DNA of 62,258 nt, taken from assembly GCA_023150845.1 (NCBI GenBank), contig JAKLKD010000008.1, positions 1 to 62,258 of the forward strand, written 5' to 3'. The notes under the pieces were generated by a model. That model was not told the origin of the DNA. It made no database searches and was given only the letters and a program-made list of their open reading frames with translations. This stretch comes from Myxococcota bacterium (GTDB lineage Bacteria; Myxococcota_A; UBA796; CAJQPC01). Numbering within the stretch: the first letter of the stretch is position 1; each line of letters begins with the position of its first letter. Of the stretch, positions 43,546 through 58,562 are shown in pieces. The translations under genes were made by a program, and so were the position numbers.

Positions 43546-44916
43546 ATGATGACCCCGACCCGCACCTTCGCCCTGCTCGCGGCGCTCCTCGCCGTCGGCT
43601 GCAAGACCCCCGAGACCAACGTCGAGACCGGCCTGGAGCCCCCAGACGAGGAGCCCATCGACGCCGACGGCGACGGCACCCCCGCTGAAGAGGACTGCGA
43701 CGACGAAGACGCCGCGGTGAACCCCGCCGCTGAGGAGACCTGCGACGGACGCGACAACAACTGCGACGGCGCCGTCGATGAGGGCACGCTCACGACCGTC
43801 TACACCGACGCCGACGGCGACACCTACGGCGACGACAGCACCGCCAGCGAGGCCTGCGCCCCGACCGACGGCCAGGCGCTCGTCGGCGGGGACTGCGACG
43901 ACGCCGACCCGGCCTACAACCCCGGGGCGTCCGAGGACGACTGCGCCGACCCCAACGACTACAACTGCGACGGCTCCACGGGCTACGCCGACGCCGACGC
44001 CGACGGCTACGCCGCCTGTGAGGACTGCGACGACGCCGACCCCGCCGTGAGCCCCGCCGCCACCGAGGTCTGCGACGACCGCGACAATAACTGCGACAAC
44101 CTCACGGACGAGAACGTCACCGAGACCTGGTGGCAAGACAAGGACGGCGACCTCTACGGCGACCCCGACTTCGCCTACATCGGCTGCGCCCAGCCCGAGG
44201 GCTACACCGACAACGTCGCCGACTGCGACGACGATGAGAGCGGCGTGAACCCCGACGCCGATGAGCTCTGCGACGGGATCGACAACGACTGCGATGGGGT
44301 CATCGACGGGCCCGACGCCCTCGACCCCTCGACCTACTACACCGACGCCGACGGCGACGGCCACGGCGACGCGACGGCGACGGTCACGGGCTGTGAGGCC
44401 CCGAGCGGCGCCGTCACCCTGAGCGACGACTGCGACGACGGAGACGGCGCGGTCTACCCCGGCGCCGCTGAAGCATGTGACAACGCAGACAACGACTGCG
44501 ACAGCGAGGCGGACGAGGAGGTCTGCGACTGCAGCTTCACCAGCTACGGCGGCCACGAGTACCTGTTCTGCGTCGAGAGCCTCGCCTGGGCCGACGCCTA
44601 CGCGGCCTGCGTCGATTACGGCTACGACCTCGTCGCCATCAACGACGCCGCCGAGGACGCCTGGCTCTGGTCAACGGCCTACGCCCTCACCGACGCCGAC
44701 TGGTGGATCGGCCTCAACGACCACACGAGCGAGGGCACCTTCGTCTGGACCAACGGCGAGGCCACGAGCTACACCGGCTGGGCGGGCGGTGAGCCCAACA
44801 ACAGCTACCACGACGGCAGCCCCGAGAACTGCGTGCACATCGGCTGGTACGCCCCGACGAGCCAGTGGAACGACTACGGCTGCGCCGCGGGGAACTACTT
44901 CATCTGTGAGGGCTGA
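43546..44916 (+). CDS. MopE-like calcium-repeat lipoprotein with C-type lectin domain
   Basis: 456 aa. Signal with lipobox LAVGC. Residues of about 38-325 hold repeated metal-binding units of the pattern DxDGD, DCDDxD, NPxAxE, CDGxDNxCDG, as in MopE and many Myxococcota surface proteins; they bind calcium. The last 125 residues form a C-type lectin-like domain: WADAYAACVDYGYDLVAIND, WWIGLND, GWAGGEPNN, WNDYGC and ICEG, with the paired cysteines in place. Likely outer-surface, calcium-dependent glycan or protein binding. It is the second gene of an operon with the small lipoprotein. Confidence 0.9.
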   Translation: MMTPTRTFALLAALLAVGCKTPETNVETGLEPPDEEPIDADGDGTPAEEDCDDEDAAVNPAAEETCDGRDNNCDGAVDEGTLTTVYTDADGDTYGDDSTASEACAPTDGQALVGGDCDDADPAYNPGASEDDCADPNDYNCDGSTGYADADADGYAACEDCDDADPAVSPAATEVCDDRDNNCDNLTDENVTETWWQDKDGDLYGDPDFAYIGCAQPEGYTDNVADCDDDESGVNPDADELCDGIDNDCDGVIDGPDALDPSTYYTDADGDGHGDATATVTGCEAPSGAVTLSDDCDDGDGAVYPGAAEACDNADNDCDSEADEEVCDCSFTSYGGHEYLFCVESLAWADAYAACVDYGYDLVAINDAAEDAWLWSTAYALTDADWWIGLNDHTSEGTFVWTNGEATSYTGWAGGEPNNSYHDGSPENCVHIGWYAPTSQWNDYGCAAGNYFICEG

Positions 44917-48000: not shown

Positions 48001-48013
48001 GGGGCGCGGGTGC

Positions 48014-48069
48014 CCACGAAATGTCGTGGCTTCGCGGGGGATGCTCACGACGGATCGTGGCGGATCGTG
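48014..48069. promoter_or_regulatory. Paired CACGA-N4-TCGTG inverted repeats (candidate enhancer sites)
   Basis: CCACGA-AATG-TCGTGG at 48014-48029 and CACGA-CGGA-TCGTG at 48046-48059, with centres 31 bp apart, plus a further TCGTG half at 48065-48069 in a direct repeat of CGGATCGTGG. They lie about 70-120 bases upstream of the predicted sigma-54 transcription start, the usual place for activator binding. Confidence 0.6.
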
Positions 48070-48112
48070 GTGGAGCCCGCCCCGGCGTGGCGCTGAGGCG
48101 CGGGCGCGGCCT

Positions 48113-48128
48113 TGGCACGGAGCTTGCT
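48113..48128 (+). promoter_or_regulatory. Sigma-54 promoter of the sulfate transport operon
   Basis: TGGCACGGAGCTTGCT matches the -24/-12 consensus (TGGCAC-N5-TTGCW) at every position. Predicted transcription start is near 48139, leaving a leader of about 50 bases before the binding-protein ATG. Confidence 0.85.
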
Positions 48129-48189
48129 CAAGGCGGTGCGAGGCGCCACGACCCTGGCGCCGCGACAACCCTCCGCCGGGAGCCTGACG

Positions 48190-49224
48190 ATGCGCCGAGT
48201 GGTCGTGCCTGTGTCCGCGCTGTGTGTGCTGCTCACCGCCTGCGCCGGGGAGGCGGAGCCGGAGCAAGACGGCGCCCGCACCCTCGTCATTGGCGCCTAC
48301 ACCACGCCCCGAGAGGTGATGAACGATCACCTCATCCCCAAGTTCCAGGAGGCCTGGCTGGCGAAGACCGGGGAGCGGGTCGAGTTTGAGACCTCGTTCC
48401 AGGCCTCGGGCAGCCAGGCCCGCGCCATCGCCGGGGGCTTCGAGGCCGACGTGGCCTGGCTCTCCTTGGAGCCCGACGTGCAGACCCTCGTGGACGCCGG
48501 GCTCATCACCCGCGACTGGCGGGCCACCCCCACGAAGGGCGTCGTCTCCTCCTCCGTCGTCGTGATCGGCGTGCGGCCGGGCAACCCCAAGGGTGTCACG
48601 GACTGGGCCGACCTCGGGAAGCCGGGCATCGAGGTGCTCACCCCGAACGTGCGCACCAGCGGCGGCGCGATGTGGAACGTGCTCGGCGTCGTCGGCGCCG
48701 CCCGCCGGGGCCACGTCGGCGCGGACACGAGCGAGGCCCACGCCGAGGCCGTGCTCGCGGGGGTGCTGCAGAACGTGCGGGTGATGGACAAGGGCGCCCG
48801 GGACTCGATGATCTCCTTCGAGAAGGGCATCGGCGACGCCATCATCTCCTACGAGAACGAGCTCGTCGTCGCCGCCTTGGCCGGGCAGAAGCTCGACACG
48901 GTGATCCCCAAGTCGACGGTCATCATTCAGAACCCCGCCGCCGTCATTGACGTCTACGCCCAGCGCCACGGCGTCACCGACCTCGCCGACGCCTTCGTGG
49001 CCTTCCTCACCGAGCCCGCCCAGCAGGCGGCCTTGGCCCGCTACGGCCTGCGCCCCGTGGTGGACGGCGTGCCCGTCGAAGGTTTCCCGCCGCTCGGCGA
49101 CACCTTCACCGCCGCGGATCTCGGCGGCTGGGCCACGCTCAAGACGACGGTGTTTGAGGACGGCGCGCTGTACGACCGCGCCTTGACCCGCGCCCAGAGC
49201 GGCGCCGCCGGTCAGGCCCCGTGA
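48190..49224 (+). CDS. Sulfate/thiosulfate ABC transporter substrate-binding lipoprotein
   Basis: 344 aa with the start at 48190 (GGGAG upstream). The Sbp/CysP family pattern is clear: EFETSFQASGSQARAI, ADVAWLSLEPDVQTL, WADLGKPGIEVLTPN and RTSGGAMWN, with late GDAIISYENE. Sbp proteins in enterobacteria are soluble periplasmic; here the signal has lipobox VLLTAC, so the protein is probably lipid-anchored. It heads an operon with two permeases, an ATPase and a sigma-54 activator, all on the plus strand with short gaps or overlaps. Sulfate is the likely ligand; thiosulfate or a related oxyanion is possible. Confidence 0.9.
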   Translation: MRRVVVPVSALCVLLTACAGEAEPEQDGARTLVIGAYTTPREVMNDHLIPKFQEAWLAKTGERVEFETSFQASGSQARAIAGGFEADVAWLSLEPDVQTLVDAGLITRDWRATPTKGVVSSSVVVIGVRPGNPKGVTDWADLGKPGIEVLTPNVRTSGGAMWNVLGVVGAARRGHVGADTSEAHAEAVLAGVLQNVRVMDKGARDSMISFEKGIGDAIISYENELVVAALAGQKLDTVIPKSTVIIQNPAAVIDVYAQRHGVTDLADAFVAFLTEPAQQAALARYGLRPVVDGVPVEGFPPLGDTFTAADLGGWATLKTTVFEDGALYDRALTRAQSGAAGQAP

Positions 49225-50033
49225 GCGCGTCCCGGGCCGTCTGGGCGCCGCGGCTGATGCGGGGCTCCTTCGGGGTGTGGATCTGCGCCCTGGTCGCCTT
49301 GCCGATGATCGCCGTGATCGCCCGGGCCGCCGAGGGTGGGCTCGGCGGCGCCTGGGAGGCCATCACCCGGCCCGCGGCGGCCCACGCCTTGGGCTTGTCC
49401 TTTGGCCTCAGCCTGCTCGTCGTGGGGATCGACCTCGTGTTTGGCCTCGCGACGGCCTGGGCGCTTGTGCGCTGGGAGATCCCCGGGCGCCGCCTCGTGA
49501 ACGCGCTCGTGGACCTGCCCTTCGCCGTGCCCACCCTCGTCGCGGGCATCCTGCTCGTGGTGATGTTGGGGCCCCAGTCCACCTTGGGCGGGGCCCTCGC
49601 CGACGTCGGCGTGGACGTGATCTACGCCTGGCCCGGCATGGTGCTCGCGCTCTGCTTCGTGACCTTGCCCTTCGTGGTGCGCGCCGTCGAGCCCGTCCTG
49701 GAGGAGCTTGACCCCGCCGAGGAGGAGGCCGCCCGCACCTTAGGCGCCAGCGAGGCGCTCATCGTGCGGCAGGTGCTCTTGCCGCCGCTCTTCCCGGCCT
49801 TGGCCGTGGGCGCCGGGCAGAGCTTCGCCCGGGCCATCGGCGAGTTCGGCGCGATGGCGGTGCTCTCGGGCAACGTGCCCCGGGAGACCTTGGTCGGCAG
49901 CGTCTACGTCTTGGGTGAGGTCGAGGCCGGAGACAGCGTCGAGGCCGCGGCGGTCAGCGTGGTGCTGCTCGTCGTCTCTATCATCGCCCAGCTCGTCGTG
50001 AGCCGGGTGAACCAGCCTTGGGGGCGCTCATGA
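49221..50033 (+). CDS. cysT: Sulfate ABC transporter permease CysT
   Basis: 270 aa, GTG start overlapping the binding-protein stop. About six membrane helices with the permease EAA loop (EEEAARTLGASEALIVRQV then LLPPLFPALAVG) that docks onto the ATPase. The RAIGEFGAMAVLSGN stretch is typical of CysT/CysW-type permeases. It pairs with the CysW-like protein to make the channel. Its stop overlaps the next ATG by 4 bases. Confidence 0.9.
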   Translation: MSASRAVWAPRLMRGSFGVWICALVALPMIAVIARAAEGGLGGAWEAITRPAAAHALGLSFGLSLLVVGIDLVFGLATAWALVRWEIPGRRLVNALVDLPFAVPTLVAGILLVVMLGPQSTLGGALADVGVDVIYAWPGMVLALCFVTLPFVVRAVEPVLEELDPAEEEAARTLGASEALIVRQVLLPPLFPALAVGAGQSFARAIGEFGAMAVLSGNVPRETLVGSVYVLGEVEAGDSVEAAAVSVVLLVVSIIAQLVVSRVNQPWGRS

Positions 50034-50842
50034 CGCCACGTCGTCGCACCACCCCGCGGGGCGTCGGCCTCGTCGTCACCGCGGCCGCGCTCTTGTGGGT
50101 CGTGGGCCTCGTCGGTGTGCCCCTGGGCGCGCTGCTCTTCGCCGTCGCCTCCGAGCCCGCCCGGGTCGTCTCCGAGCTCGTTGAGCAAGGCGGCTTAGAC
50201 GCCTTGGGGCGCTCCGTCGGGCTCGCGGTCTTCGCCGTGCTCGTCAGCGGCGTCACCGGCACCATCGGCGGCATCGTGCTCGCCCGGCAGCGCTTCTGGG
50301 GCCGCGCCGCCCTCGACGTGGCCGTGGACCTCCCCCTCGCCGTGAGCCCGGTGATCGTCGGCCTCGCCTTCGTCATCCTCTACGGCCGCGGCGGCTGGCT
50401 GGAGCCCCTGGCGACGGCGATGGGCGTGAAGGTGCTCTTCGCGACGCCGGGCCTGCTCCTGGCGACGGTCTTCGTGTGCCTGCCCTTCTTTGTGCGAGAG
50501 GTGGCCTTGGTGCTGGAGGAGGTCGGCACGAGCGAAGAGGACGCCGCCCGCACCTTAGGCGCGAGCGAGTGGCAGGTGTTCATGTGGGTGACCTTGCCCC
50601 AGCTCCGCGGCGCCCTGCGCGTCGGCACGCTCTTGACCGTGGCCCGGGCGCTCGGGGAGTTCGGCGCGGTGCTCGTGCTCGGCGGCGCCATCGAGGGCCG
50701 CACCCAGACCGCCACGACCTTCGTTCACACCATGATGGAGGAGCGACACGACGCCGGGGCCTTCGGCATGTCGCTCATCCTCGCCGCGATGACCGCGCTG
50801 CTCGTCCAGGCTTTGCCGACGGGCGCCCGCACCAAACACTGA
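50030..50842 (+). CDS. cysW: Sulfate ABC transporter permease CysW
   Basis: 270 aa with the start at 50030 (ATGA overlap with cysT). Six or so membrane helices; EAA loop EEDAARTLGASEWQVFMWV; late ALGEFGAVLVLGGAIEGRTQ and FVHTMMEERHDAGAFGMSL, matching CysW. N-terminus is Arg-rich before the first helix. Forms the channel with CysT. Confidence 0.9.
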   Translation: MTPRRRTTPRGVGLVVTAAALLWVVGLVGVPLGALLFAVASEPARVVSELVEQGGLDALGRSVGLAVFAVLVSGVTGTIGGIVLARQRFWGRAALDVAVDLPLAVSPVIVGLAFVILYGRGGWLEPLATAMGVKVLFATPGLLLATVFVCLPFFVREVALVLEEVGTSEEDAARTLGASEWQVFMWVTLPQLRGALRVGTLLTVARALGEFGAVLVLGGAIEGRTQTATTFVHTMMEERHDAGAFGMSLILAAMTALLVQALPTGARTKH

Positions 50843-50879
50843 CCCAGGTCTAGGCCTGAACCGCGCTCCGAGGTGAACC

Positions 50880-51911
50880 ATGGGCATCGTCGCCAAGAAC
50901 CTGCACAAACAGTTCGGTGAGACGCGGGTGATCCGCGGGGTGAGCCTCAGCGTCGAGCCCGGGGAGATGGTCTCGCTTCTCGGGCCCTCGGGCGGCGGAA
51001 AGAGCACGGTCCTGCGGATCCTCGCGGGGCTGGAGCGCGCCGACGCCGGCGAGGTGTGGCTCGACGGGCAGCGTGTGGACCACCTCGACGCGGCCTCACG
51101 CGGCGTCGGCTTCGTGTTCCAGCACTACGCCTTGTTCCGGCACATGCGCGTCGTGGACAACGTCGCGTTCGGGCTCAAGGTGCGGAAGGTCAACCCCGAC
51201 GAGGCGCGGCGGCGCGCGGAGGCCCTGCTCGCGCGGGTCGGCCTCGGCGGGCTCAGCGAGCGCTGGCCAGACGAGCTCTCCGGCGGTCAGCGCCAGCGGG
51301 TGGCCTTGGCCCGGGCCCTGGCCCCGGCGCCTCGGGTGCTGCTCCTGGACGAGCCCTTCGGGGCCCTCGACGCCCGGGTGCGCGCCGACCTGCGGGAGTG
51401 GCTGCGCCGCCTGCACGACGAGGTGGGCGCCACGACGGTGCTCGTCACCCACGACCAGGAGGAGGCGCTCTCTGTGTCGGATCGGGTCGTGCTCGTGCGG
51501 GACGGCCTCATCGAGCAAGACGGCAGCCCGGCGGAGATCGTGGACAGCCCCCGGACGGAGTTCGTCGCGCGTTTTGTCGGGGAGGTGAACGTCGTCGAGG
51601 GCGTCGTCGACGCCGAGGGCCTGCTCGTGGCGGGGGGCTTACGCCTGCGTGTGCCGGGCGCGGTGAAGGCCGGGACCCGGCTGCGCGCCGTGCTCCGTTC
51701 CCATGAGCTGCAGGTCTTGGCCGACCCCGCCGGGCGCGGCGTGGTGCGCCGAGTGGTGCCCCTGGACGATCGTGCCCGCGTCGAGCTCACCTTGGACGGC
51801 GCCTCTCTCGTGGCGCGTGTGCCCCGGGCCGAGGCCCAGGCGCTCCATGTGGGCAGCGCCGTCGGCGTCGCCTCGCAGGGCCCCGCGCGTGTATGGGCCA
51901 TCGAGGCCTGA
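50880..51911 (+). CDS. cysA: Sulfate ABC transporter ATPase CysA
   Basis: 343 aa. Walker A LGPSGGGKSTVLR, Q-loop FVFQHYALFRHM, signature LSGGQRQRVALARAL, Walker B VLLLDEPFGALD and H-loop LVTHDQEEAL, followed by a C-terminal TOBE-type regulatory domain of about 100 residues. GAGGTGA lies just before the ATG. It energises sulfate import through CysTW. Fourth gene of the operon. Confidence 0.94.
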   Translation: MGIVAKNLHKQFGETRVIRGVSLSVEPGEMVSLLGPSGGGKSTVLRILAGLERADAGEVWLDGQRVDHLDAASRGVGFVFQHYALFRHMRVVDNVAFGLKVRKVNPDEARRRAEALLARVGLGGLSERWPDELSGGQRQRVALARALAPAPRVLLLDEPFGALDARVRADLREWLRRLHDEVGATTVLVTHDQEEALSVSDRVVLVRDGLIEQDGSPAEIVDSPRTEFVARFVGEVNVVEGVVDAEGLLVAGGLRLRVPGAVKAGTRLRAVLRSHELQVLADPAGRGVVRRVVPLDDRARVELTLDGASLVARVPRAEAQALHVGSAVGVASQGPARVWAIEA

Positions 51912-51950
51912 GCCCGGATACGTTCCTCCAACCCTCTGCCCGGAGCGGCT

Positions 51951-53531
51951 ATGGATCCTCGCTGGAGCGCGTCGCCCTGGACGTCCCTCTTGCTCAACAC
52001 CTGGCGACAGGTCTCGGAGCACCTCGACATCGCGGCCTGCCTCGACGAGCTGGCCCCCGGCCTGACCGCGGGGCTGCCGCTGCGCCGGATCTGGGTGCGC
52101 CGCCTGGACCCCCAGCACGCCTGGTTAGAGACCGCGGCGGTGTCCCCCTGGGATCGGGGCCTCGGCGAGCTGCCCGCGCGCCGGGCCTTAGACGCCGAGG
52201 AGCTGCGCCTGGTGAGCGCCTGGGTGAGCCGTGGGCGCGTCGAGGCCCTCTCCCCGCGCCTCGCCGGGGTGGTCTCGCCCCAGCGGCCCCGGGGCGGGGT
52301 GACCTTGGCCGGTGGGCTCGTCGACGCCCAGAAGCCCGTCGGGGTGGTGCTGTTTGAGGGCGGTGAGGCCCTCTCGGCGCAGACGGAGCTGCTCACGGCC
52401 CTGCTCGCGCCGCTGCTCGTGGCCTTGCGGAACGACCAGCGGGTGCACGAGCTCGCGCGGCTGCGTGAGGCCGTCGAGGCCGAGAACCGCGCCCTGCTCT
52501 CCCGCCTGGCCCGCGACGGCGTCGCCGGGGCCGTGGTCGGCGCCGACGCCGGGATGCGGGAGGTCATGGCCCGGGTCCAGCGCGTGAGCCAGACCGACGC
52601 CCCGGTGCTCATCCTCGGGGAGACCGGCACAGGCAAAGAGCTCGTCGCCCGTGAGGTCCACGCCCGCAGCGCCCGGGCCCAGGGCCCCTTCCTCAAGGTG
52701 AACTGCGGTGGCATCCCGCCGGAGCTCATCGACAGCGAGCTCTTCGGCCACGAGCGCGGCAGCTTCACCGGCGCGGTCTCCGAGCGCCGCGGCTGGTTCG
52801 AGCGCGCCGACGGCGGCACCCTCTTCTTGGACGAGATCGGCGAGCTGCCCCCGGCCGCCCAGGTGCGGCTCTTGCGGGTGCTCCAGGACGGCACCTTTGA
52901 GCGTGTGGGCGGCCAGCGGCCCCTGCACGCCGACGTGCGTATCCTCGCCGCTACCCACCGCGACCTCGGCCTCATGGTGTCCGAGGGGCGCTTCCGTGAG
53001 GATCTCTGGTACCGGATCGGCGTGTTCCCCCTGCGGCTCCCGCCGCTGCGGGAGCGCCTCGGCGACCTGCCGGCCTTGGTCGCCACCTTCGCCGGGCGCG
53101 CCGGGCAGCGGCTCTTCGGCCGCCCCCTCGCCGCCACCTCGGAGGACCTCAACCTGCTCGGCGCCTACCACTGGCCGGGCAACGTGCGGGAGCTCGGCGC
53201 CGTGGTCGAGCGCGCGGCGATCCTCGGCGACGGCCACGGCCTCGACGTGCGCGGGGCCCTCGGCGTGCAGGCCGACGCGGCGCCGGGGCGCCTGGGGCGA
53301 CCGGCGCTCGACCCGACGCTCCCCCACCGTGAGCCGCCGACCAAGAGCCCAGCGGGGCCAGCCTCGCTGGAGGAGGTGAACCGCCGGGCGATTCAGGAGG
53401 CGCTGCGCGCGTCCGCGGGGCGAATCGAGGGCCGGGGCGGGGCCGCGGGGCGCCTGGGGCTCTCGCCGTCCACCCTGCGCTCACGCATGAAGCGCCTCAA
53501 CATTGAGTGGGACTCGTTTCGGCCCGTCTAA
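51951..53531 (+). CDS. Sigma-54-dependent transcriptional activator with GAF-like sensor
   Basis: 526 aa. N-terminal sensor of about 180 residues, GAF-like. The central AAA+ domain has Walker A GETGTGKE, ELFGHERGSFTGA, Walker B GGTLFLDEIGELP and WPGNVREL. The C-terminus has a Fis-type helix-turn-helix (RLGLSPSTLRSRMKRLNI). The sigma-54 contact loop is GSFTGA, not the consensus GAFTGA. The gene is the last of the sulfate transporter operon, which itself has a consensus sigma-54 promoter and upstream inverted repeats, so autoregulation of sulfate uptake is likely. The signal sensed is unknown. Confidence 0.92.
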   Translation: MDPRWSASPWTSLLLNTWRQVSEHLDIAACLDELAPGLTAGLPLRRIWVRRLDPQHAWLETAAVSPWDRGLGELPARRALDAEELRLVSAWVSRGRVEALSPRLAGVVSPQRPRGGVTLAGGLVDAQKPVGVVLFEGGEALSAQTELLTALLAPLLVALRNDQRVHELARLREAVEAENRALLSRLARDGVAGAVVGADAGMREVMARVQRVSQTDAPVLILGETGTGKELVAREVHARSARAQGPFLKVNCGGIPPELIDSELFGHERGSFTGAVSERRGWFERADGGTLFLDEIGELPPAAQVRLLRVLQDGTFERVGGQRPLHADVRILAATHRDLGLMVSEGRFREDLWYRIGVFPLRLPPLRERLGDLPALVATFAGRAGQRLFGRPLAATSEDLNLLGAYHWPGNVRELGAVVERAAILGDGHGLDVRGALGVQADAAPGRLGRPALDPTLPHREPPTKSPAGPASLEEVNRRAIQEALRASAGRIEGRGGAAGRLGLSPSTLRSRMKRLNIEWDSFRPV

Positions 53532-57278: not shown

Positions 57279-58562
57279 ATGCGCCTCCACCCGCTCCTCG
57301 CGCTCCTCGCCTTGGCCTCGTCCTGCGGCGACAAAGAGACCACCGACGACTCCCCGGCGCAGGACAGCGCCGAGGACTCCGCCGCGGCCGTAGACGCCGA
57401 CGGTGACGGCGTGCCCTCGGACCTCGACTGCGACGACGACGACGCCAGCGTGGCCCCTGGCCTCACCGAGACCTGCGACGGCCGCGACCAAGACTGCGAC
57501 GGCGCCGTCGATGAGGACGCCGCCGACGCGACCTCTTGGCTGAGCGACCTCGACGGGGACGGCTACGGCGCCGGAGCGGTGGTCGTGGTGTCCTGCGAGG
57601 CGCCCTCCGGCGGCGTGGCCCTCAGCGGCGACTGCGACGACCAGAACCCCGAGGCTTACCCCGGCGCCCCCGAGGAGTGTGAGGTCGCCGCCGACCTCAA
57701 CTGCGACGGCTCCATCGGCGGAGACGACGCCGACGCTGACGGGGTCGTGGCCTGCGAGGACTGCGACGACACCAACGCCCAGGCCTTCCCCGGCAACGTC
57801 GAGCGCGCGGACGACGGAGTGGACGGCGACTGCGACGGCCTTGAGGGCGGCGAAGACCGCGACGGCGACGGGCTCAACGAGGTCGAGGAGGCCCAGGCTG
57901 GCACCGACCCCCTCGCCGCGGACACCGACGCCGACGGCCTCTCCGACGGCGACGAGCGCGGCGAGCACGGCACCGACCCCCTCACCGCCGACAGCGACGG
58001 CGACGGCGCCGACGACGGCGCCGAGGTCTCCGGCAACACCGACCCCACCGACGCCACGGACAAGCCCTACATCGGCGGCTGGGAGATCGACGCCTGCCGC
58101 GGGTCCATCACCCCTTCAGGCACGACCGTCGGCAAGATCGCCCCCAGCTTCTCCTTGACCGACCAGCACGGCGACAAGGTCAAGCTCCACGACTTCTGCG
58201 GGAAGGTGGTCTTGCTGGACTTCGGCACCTTCTGGTGACCCCGCTGCCAGTCGGCGGTCGCCGACCTTCAGACCCGCCAAGACAAGTACGGCGCCTACGG
58301 CTTCATCGCCATCGGGCTCTATTCCGAGACCACGAGCTACCGCGTGCCGACCGCCGCCGACCTCATGGCCTGGGCGACCTTCTACGGCCTCAGCTTCCCC
58401 GTGCTCTCCGACCCCGGCGGGACGGAGGACAAACGGTATGACCCCGGCGACCGCAGCCGCCCGAGCTACGTGCTCCTCGGGCCCGGCGCGGAGATCCTCG
58501 TCGTCGGGACGAGCGTGACCGACGCCCAGATCGAGGCGGCCCTGCCGACGCCTTACCCATGA
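57279..58562 (+). CDS. Predicted selenoprotein: calcium-repeat lipoprotein with UxxC thioredoxin-like domain
   Basis: 427 aa if the TGA at 58236-58238 is read as selenocysteine (residue 320); read as stop it gives 319 aa lacking most of the redox domain. Signal with lipobox LASSC. Residues 37-190 hold MopE-like DCDDxD and CDGxDQDCDG units, then thrombospondin-3-like DGDGLNEVEEAQAGTDPLAADTDADG-type repeats to about 265. From about 285 a TlpA/AhpC-like domain begins: GKIAPSFSLTDQHGDKV, VVLLDFGTFW, then U-P-R-C. After the TGA the frame stays open for 107 more codons, with the expected cis-Pro segment RPSYVLLGPGAEIL. The Sec replaces the first catalytic Cys. Likely an extracytoplasmic thiol/peroxide redox enzyme. 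A sequencing error or nonsense mutation is the alternative. Confidence 0.85.
58236..58271 (+). other. Sec codon (TGA) and candidate bacterial SECIS hairpin
   Basis: TGA at 58236-58238. Stem GTCGGC (58250-58255) pairs perfectly with GCCGAC (58260-58265) around loop GGTC (58256-58259); lower CTG/CAG (58244-58246, 58269-58271) can extend it across an internal loop. Counting U of UGA as 1, the loop G-U is at 22-23; in E. coli fdhF it is 23-24 with the same GGUC loop. Confidence 0.78.

Follow-up and report, generated by a model that had tools for sequence, protein, structure and literature searches.

A probable lipid-anchored selenoprotein oxidoreductase borne on a MopE/TSP3-repeat stalk in a Myxococcota bacterium

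In the window (the whole 62,258-nt stretch of Myxococcota DNA analyzed here), a frame beginning with ATG at 57279 is interrupted only once, by a TGA at codon 320, and then runs on for 107 sense codons to a second TGA, as a previous sequence-only reading had described (Table 1). That reading had placed the first TGA at the first Cys of the CxxC motif in a TlpA/thioredoxin-type site. In agreement with this, the active-site string is VVLLDFGTFW-U-PRC, the AhpC-TSA match of the read-through product in Pfam covers residues 284–389 and spans the TGA (62.9 bits against a gathering score of 26 for PF00578), and homologues carry TGA or Cys at this position. The lipobox of this copy, read by eye as A-S-S-C, is not of the strictest form; homologue N-termini have typical and stronger lipoboxes (LLGC, LTAC, and LVAC). 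Another secreted MopE-repeat protein is encoded at 43546–44916 (plus strand) of the window, and its C-terminal domain appears C-type-lectin-like by eye.

Table 1 Features of the probable selenoprotein gene in the window.
Feature	Position	Strand	Basis
Probable selenoprotein gene, 427 residues with Sec320	57279..58562	+	Frame read through TGA; sister genome G001 keeps the TGA and the downstream frame
Putative signal peptide with lipobox-like end, MRLHPLLALLALASS-C16	57279..57326	+	Sequence and homologue N-termini; lipidation predicted
Three MopE-type metal-binding motifs	57420..57839	+	PF11617 (2.3e-21), three stretches; outer limits by eye
Bacterial TSP3 (calcium) repeats	57855..58061	+	PF18884 (7.7e-11), two stretches; outer limits by eye
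Redox domain, YxGGW..CR..-AhpC/TlpA fold	58068..58559	+	PF00578 (3.5e-17); AlphaFold pLDDT 91.5; nearest folds ResA and Etrx2
In-frame TGA, predicted Sec320 at the N-end of the active-site helix	58236..58238	+	TGA or Cys in all catalytic homologues compared; model helix 58-77 begins beside the Sec position
Putative resolving Cys323 of UPRC	58245..58247	+	Column C60, invariant in the domain alignment
Candidate bSECIS hairpin GUCGGC-GGUC-GCCGAC, 11-nt spacer, apical loop 17 nt after UGA	58250..58265	+	Fits the bSECIS constraints of PMC13188914
Terminating TGA	58560..58562	+	Sequence; homologue alignment stops there

In the AlphaFold model of the redox domain, the Sec position lies at the start of the active-site helix. 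The nearest solved structures were ResA (E = 8e-12) and Etrx2, a pneumococcal surface lipoprotein thioredoxin (E = 6e-11), and the sequence search agreed with them. The best reading of the product is therefore a lipid-anchored, calcium-repeat-borne selenoprotein thiol:disulfide oxidoreductase with a ResA/Etrx-like fold, whose function and secretion we infer. A peroxiredoxin-like selenoperoxidase, which would change the function and leave the Sec reading as it is, was also considered, since the top match in Pfam is AhpC-TSA, some members of the redox family match GSHPx, and peroxiredoxin folds appear lower in the list of fold matches. However, in both sequence and fold, ResA and Etrx2 rank ahead of the peroxiredoxins, and the WUxxC motif lies on the active-site helix, a conserved proline preceding the last strands. 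Thus, a selenoperoxidase is the less likely function, though one with some claim to attention.

In this GC-rich window, ten TGAs in UxxC or CxxU context are flanked on both sides by long open stretches, so that a frame staying open beyond a TGA is weak evidence by itself and homology must decide. Three of the other nine were inspected, and all were in low-complexity, non-gene frames. We compared the 162-residue redox domain with 58 related genomes by translated search. The sister species (G001) has TGA at the same codon with 96% identity, and the position of codon 320 is TGA in about 40 homologues and Cys in 12. The W-C-x-x-C predicted for relatives was found in two genomes of the same family, G003 (W-C-G-T-C, 59% identity) and G002 (W-C-G-V-C, 55% identity). 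Synteny with the sister extends over 53.5–62.3 kb, covering the gene and its neighbourhood. The adjoining segment at 48006–53485, which encodes a sulfate-type ABC transporter (binding protein, two permeases, and ATPase) and a sigma-54-type regulator, is absent from the corresponding place on the sister contig.

Between the two genomes, the 107 codons downstream of the TGA differ by 33 synonymous and 7 nonsynonymous changes, and omega was 0.051 there compared with 0.357 for the stalk. None of the first 15 codons past the TGA had changed, compared with 35 of 108 codons changed (P = 0.0017); such a gap in variation would be expected of an RNA element at that place. Additionally, a search of the 7.1-Mb genome for the pattern TTYTGGTGANNNNNNTGY gave two occurrences and no more, each within a redox-family member, and the reversed control gave none. 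At the level of sequence, conservation raises the case for TGA 58236 above chance.

The genome (7.13 Mb, 444 contigs, 95.7% complete) contains selA (487 bits), selB (311 bits), and selD (374 bits), all above curated cut-offs. selD (L017; G000:C167:174-1097, minus strand) has an in-frame TGA within CAG-TGA-ASK, the classical Sec site of selenophosphate synthetase (SelD). This is strong independent evidence that the organism decodes UGA as Sec. selD is thus a second selenoprotein gene in this genome, and ordinary annotation cuts it short.

Among the Sec genes that the sequence-only reading had named, only selC (tRNA-Sec) was not found. Searches of this assembly and of the sister assembly with Rfam RF01852, a 24-sequence lineage model, and anticodon-arm patterns did not detect it, and scans around selA, selB, and selD gave only Ser/Leu-type tRNAs or chance matches. 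Its site could not be located by synteny with G002 either, the neighbours of the G002 tRNA-Sec not being common to other relatives. tRNA-Sec was present in 44 of the 58 relatives, with the anticodon UCA in those checked. No tRNA-Sec was detected in eight of the 51 selA-positive genomes, namely this genome, the sister, and six other relatives. An assembly gap is the likeliest explanation; in a 95.7% complete draft of 444 contigs, absence of the tRNA gene is indistinguishable from such a gap. Among the matches listed, TGA forms went with Sec machinery in 36 of 37 genomes (Fisher P = 0.02, approximate), and genomes without detected Sec machinery had Cys forms only, the exception being G049 (77% complete).

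A bacterial SECIS (bSECIS) hairpin is described as having a loop of 3–9 nt with G in the first two loop positions, a stem of 4–16 bp, a distance of 16–37 nt after UGA, and an MFE of at most -7.5 (PMC13188914). The hairpin found past TGA 58236 lies within all these limits (loop GGUC of 4 nt, stem of 6 bp, 17 nt, and MFE of -13.1 for a 48-nt segment). Compared with synonymous recodings, it is by itself only moderately unusual (P = 0.116 with any loop and P = 0.026 with GGU in the loop). A test restricted to GGU missed many hairpins with GGC, GGG, or AGUC loops, and therefore a motif-free test was used for the family. Over the 48 nt that follow the Sec codon, the mean hairpin score of 41 Sec members was 17.1 against 9.4 in synonymous recodings, while that of 12 Cys members was 4.4 against 5.9. 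The difference between Sec and Cys members gave P = 2.7e-7, a value that is approximate because the sequences are related. In a 19-member subgroup, the stem showed covariation with two-sided changes in five cells; none of 500 shuffles scored as high, and slid versions failed. No clear hairpin was found by the simple scorer in two Sec members (L085 and L028).

In general, UGA decoding competes with termination. UGA might accordingly be decoded mostly as Cys (SelB-dependent, via thiophosphate) or by near-cognate read-through, yielding a mixture of the full-length protein and a 319-residue calcium-binding lipoprotein, and the truncated form may be useful when selenium is short. The N-terminal stalk forms a secreted unit that is complete in itself, and the lack of a detected tRNA-Sec in this assembly would also fit such a mixture. 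However, the SECIS-type hairpin, the complete selA/selB/selD set, and the Sec form of selD make Sec the expected residue, and we regard this reading as very unlikely.

A nonsense mutation, or a sequencing or assembly error, might have turned a Cys (or Trp) codon into TGA and left the rest as a decaying remnant; errors are possible in a draft genome of 444 contigs, and ordinary annotation would end the gene at TGA 58236. Sequencing error is unlikely, because the independent sister genome has the same TGA. The TGA is also shared by dozens of homologues from other genera, the region downstream of it is under strong purifying selection, and no downstream start codon could retain the CxxC-like site, so that error or decay is extremely improbable. 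Genome-wide reassignment of TGA, for instance to Trp, would account for the one TGA read through and deserves hardly any credence, since the window gene and several homologues terminate at TGA, TGA occurs only where relatives carry Cys, and the W right before it is coded by TGG; no set of conserved genes with in-frame TGA at Trp positions, which such a reassignment would require, was seen.

Common to the redox family are an N-terminus of lipobox type, an acidic stalk built of TSP3 repeats and in some members also of MopE repeats, a YxGGW..CR leader, and a redox head. C10, C44, C57 (Sec/Cys), and C60 are invariant in the alignment of the redox domain. In a phylum-wide sample, the profile of the redox domain matched at E < 1e-25 in 61 of 284 genomes. 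These 61 genomes are concentrated in the order and class of this organism, with a few matches elsewhere in the phylum. A scan of genome contigs with a six-row domain alignment gave matches in named records, among them Myxococcota bacterium MAG.430 (the sister), Deltaproteobacteria CH-Jul18-23, and Myxococcales Baikal-deep-G128.

This genome itself has three TGA members and one Cys member (contig C150). Besides the window gene, the TGA members are L087 (G000:C359:2136-2615; FWUGSC) and L093 (G000:C179:6258-6719; FTUSTC). In G037, the TGA members number about six, and one copy has lost both catalytic residues. In its locus L092 (G037:C15, 1917-4563), four redox-family members are arranged in tandem, three of them with TGA; the fourth, which reads GASQDGPTR, retains neither catalytic residue and is possibly a pseudo-enzyme. 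In a maximum-likelihood tree, Cys members sit among Sec members, and five Sec/Cys changes are needed, two of which are forced by well-supported branches. The tree is unrooted, and the changes may have gone in either direction. The Sec-to-Cys direction is regarded as rare in bacteria.

The sequence-only reading had called the selenoprotein undescribed, which holds for its architecture and lineage, neither of which was found in the catalogue or NCBIfam, and does not hold for its kind. UxxC selenoproteins of the AhpC/TSA, redoxin, and TlpA types, listed as Prx-like thiol:disulfide oxidoreductase, redoxin, and thiol-disulfide isomerase-like proteins with PF00578, PF08534, or cd02966, have been catalogued (PMC13188914, Table 1, 2026). 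As predicted for the window protein, Sec replaces the first Cys and a bSECIS lies downstream; in contrast, that paper mentions no MopE/thrombospondin (TSP3) stalk, lipobox or lipoprotein layout, or Myxococcota. The window family stands apart as a separate subfamily through its YxGGW..CR leader and two further invariant cysteines, Cys10 and Cys44. Our search for Myxococcota or TSP3 selenoproteins in open-licence papers found nothing relevant, an absence that is not proof.

ResA of Bacillus (1st9, 4nmu), the best relative in fold and sequence, is likewise membrane-tethered and extracytoplasmic with CxxC on the same helix, but has Cys instead of Sec and no repeat stalk. The window product scored below the NCBIfam ResA model (NF002854; 42.6 bits against a cut-off of 170), and no NCBIfam model, including PrxU and SelL-related ones, reached its cut-off. 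Pneumococcal Etrx1 and Etrx2 (4hqs, 4hqz), whose partner is MsrAB2, are lipid-anchored surface thioredoxin folds and close fold matches, but are Cys forms without a calcium-repeat stalk (PMC3914529). The PF11617 and PF18884 repeats of MopE/TSP3 proteins form the stalk of the window protein; elsewhere they stand on unrelated heads, as at 43546–44916, whereas here they carry a redox enzyme. The combination of a lipobox, a MopE/TSP3 stalk, and a redox head, with about six TGA copies in one genome and repeated Sec/Cys exchange in the order of this organism, was absent from the sources searched and is apparently uncatalogued.

Taken together, the gene very probably encodes one 427-residue exported, lipid-anchored, stalk-borne selenoprotein oxidoreductase with Sec320 inserted by means of SelB and the hairpin. 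The selenoprotein proposal of the sequence-only reading is thus strengthened by the TGA conserved in the sister, the omega of 0.051, the hairpin, and selA/selB/selD. The frame, the TGA conservation, the Sec/Cys exchange, the hairpin, the fold, and the Sec genes are evident from sequence comparison; Sec insertion, lipidation, calcium binding, and the substrate are predicted. During translation, SelB with Sec-tRNA would bind the hairpin directly past the UGA, Sec would be inserted at position 320, and the second in-frame TGA would terminate the protein. The product would be exported and lipid-anchored via Cys16, with the acidic calcium-binding MopE/TSP3 stalk bearing the thioredoxin-fold domain. 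Sec320 would act as the attacking nucleophile and Cys323 would resolve the mixed selenenyl-sulfide, so that the protein would be a cell-surface or periplasmic thiol:disulfide oxidoreductase of the ResA/TlpA/Etrx type, with disulfides, sulfoxides, or peroxides outside the cytoplasm as its probable substrates.

More broadly, there is about an even chance that these genes represent an uncatalogued, lineage-wide family of surface selenoproteins with calcium-repeat stalks and Sec heads, which in places reach half a dozen per genome and have exchanged Sec and Cys repeatedly, maybe also from Sec to Cys. If so, selenium chemistry would be taking place outside the cytoplasm of uncultured Myxococcota to an extent previously unrecognised. 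The gene models of standard annotation end at the catalytic residue, and a whole enzyme family of an environmental bacterial group would therefore be recorded as truncated lipoproteins and fragments. The selenoprotein catalogue would gain an extracellular, repeat-borne architecture, and Myxococcota would be indicated as an overlooked selenium-using lineage. The natural ortholog pairs within one family, Sec in G000 and G001 versus Cys in G002 and G003, would make the cost and benefit of Sec directly testable.
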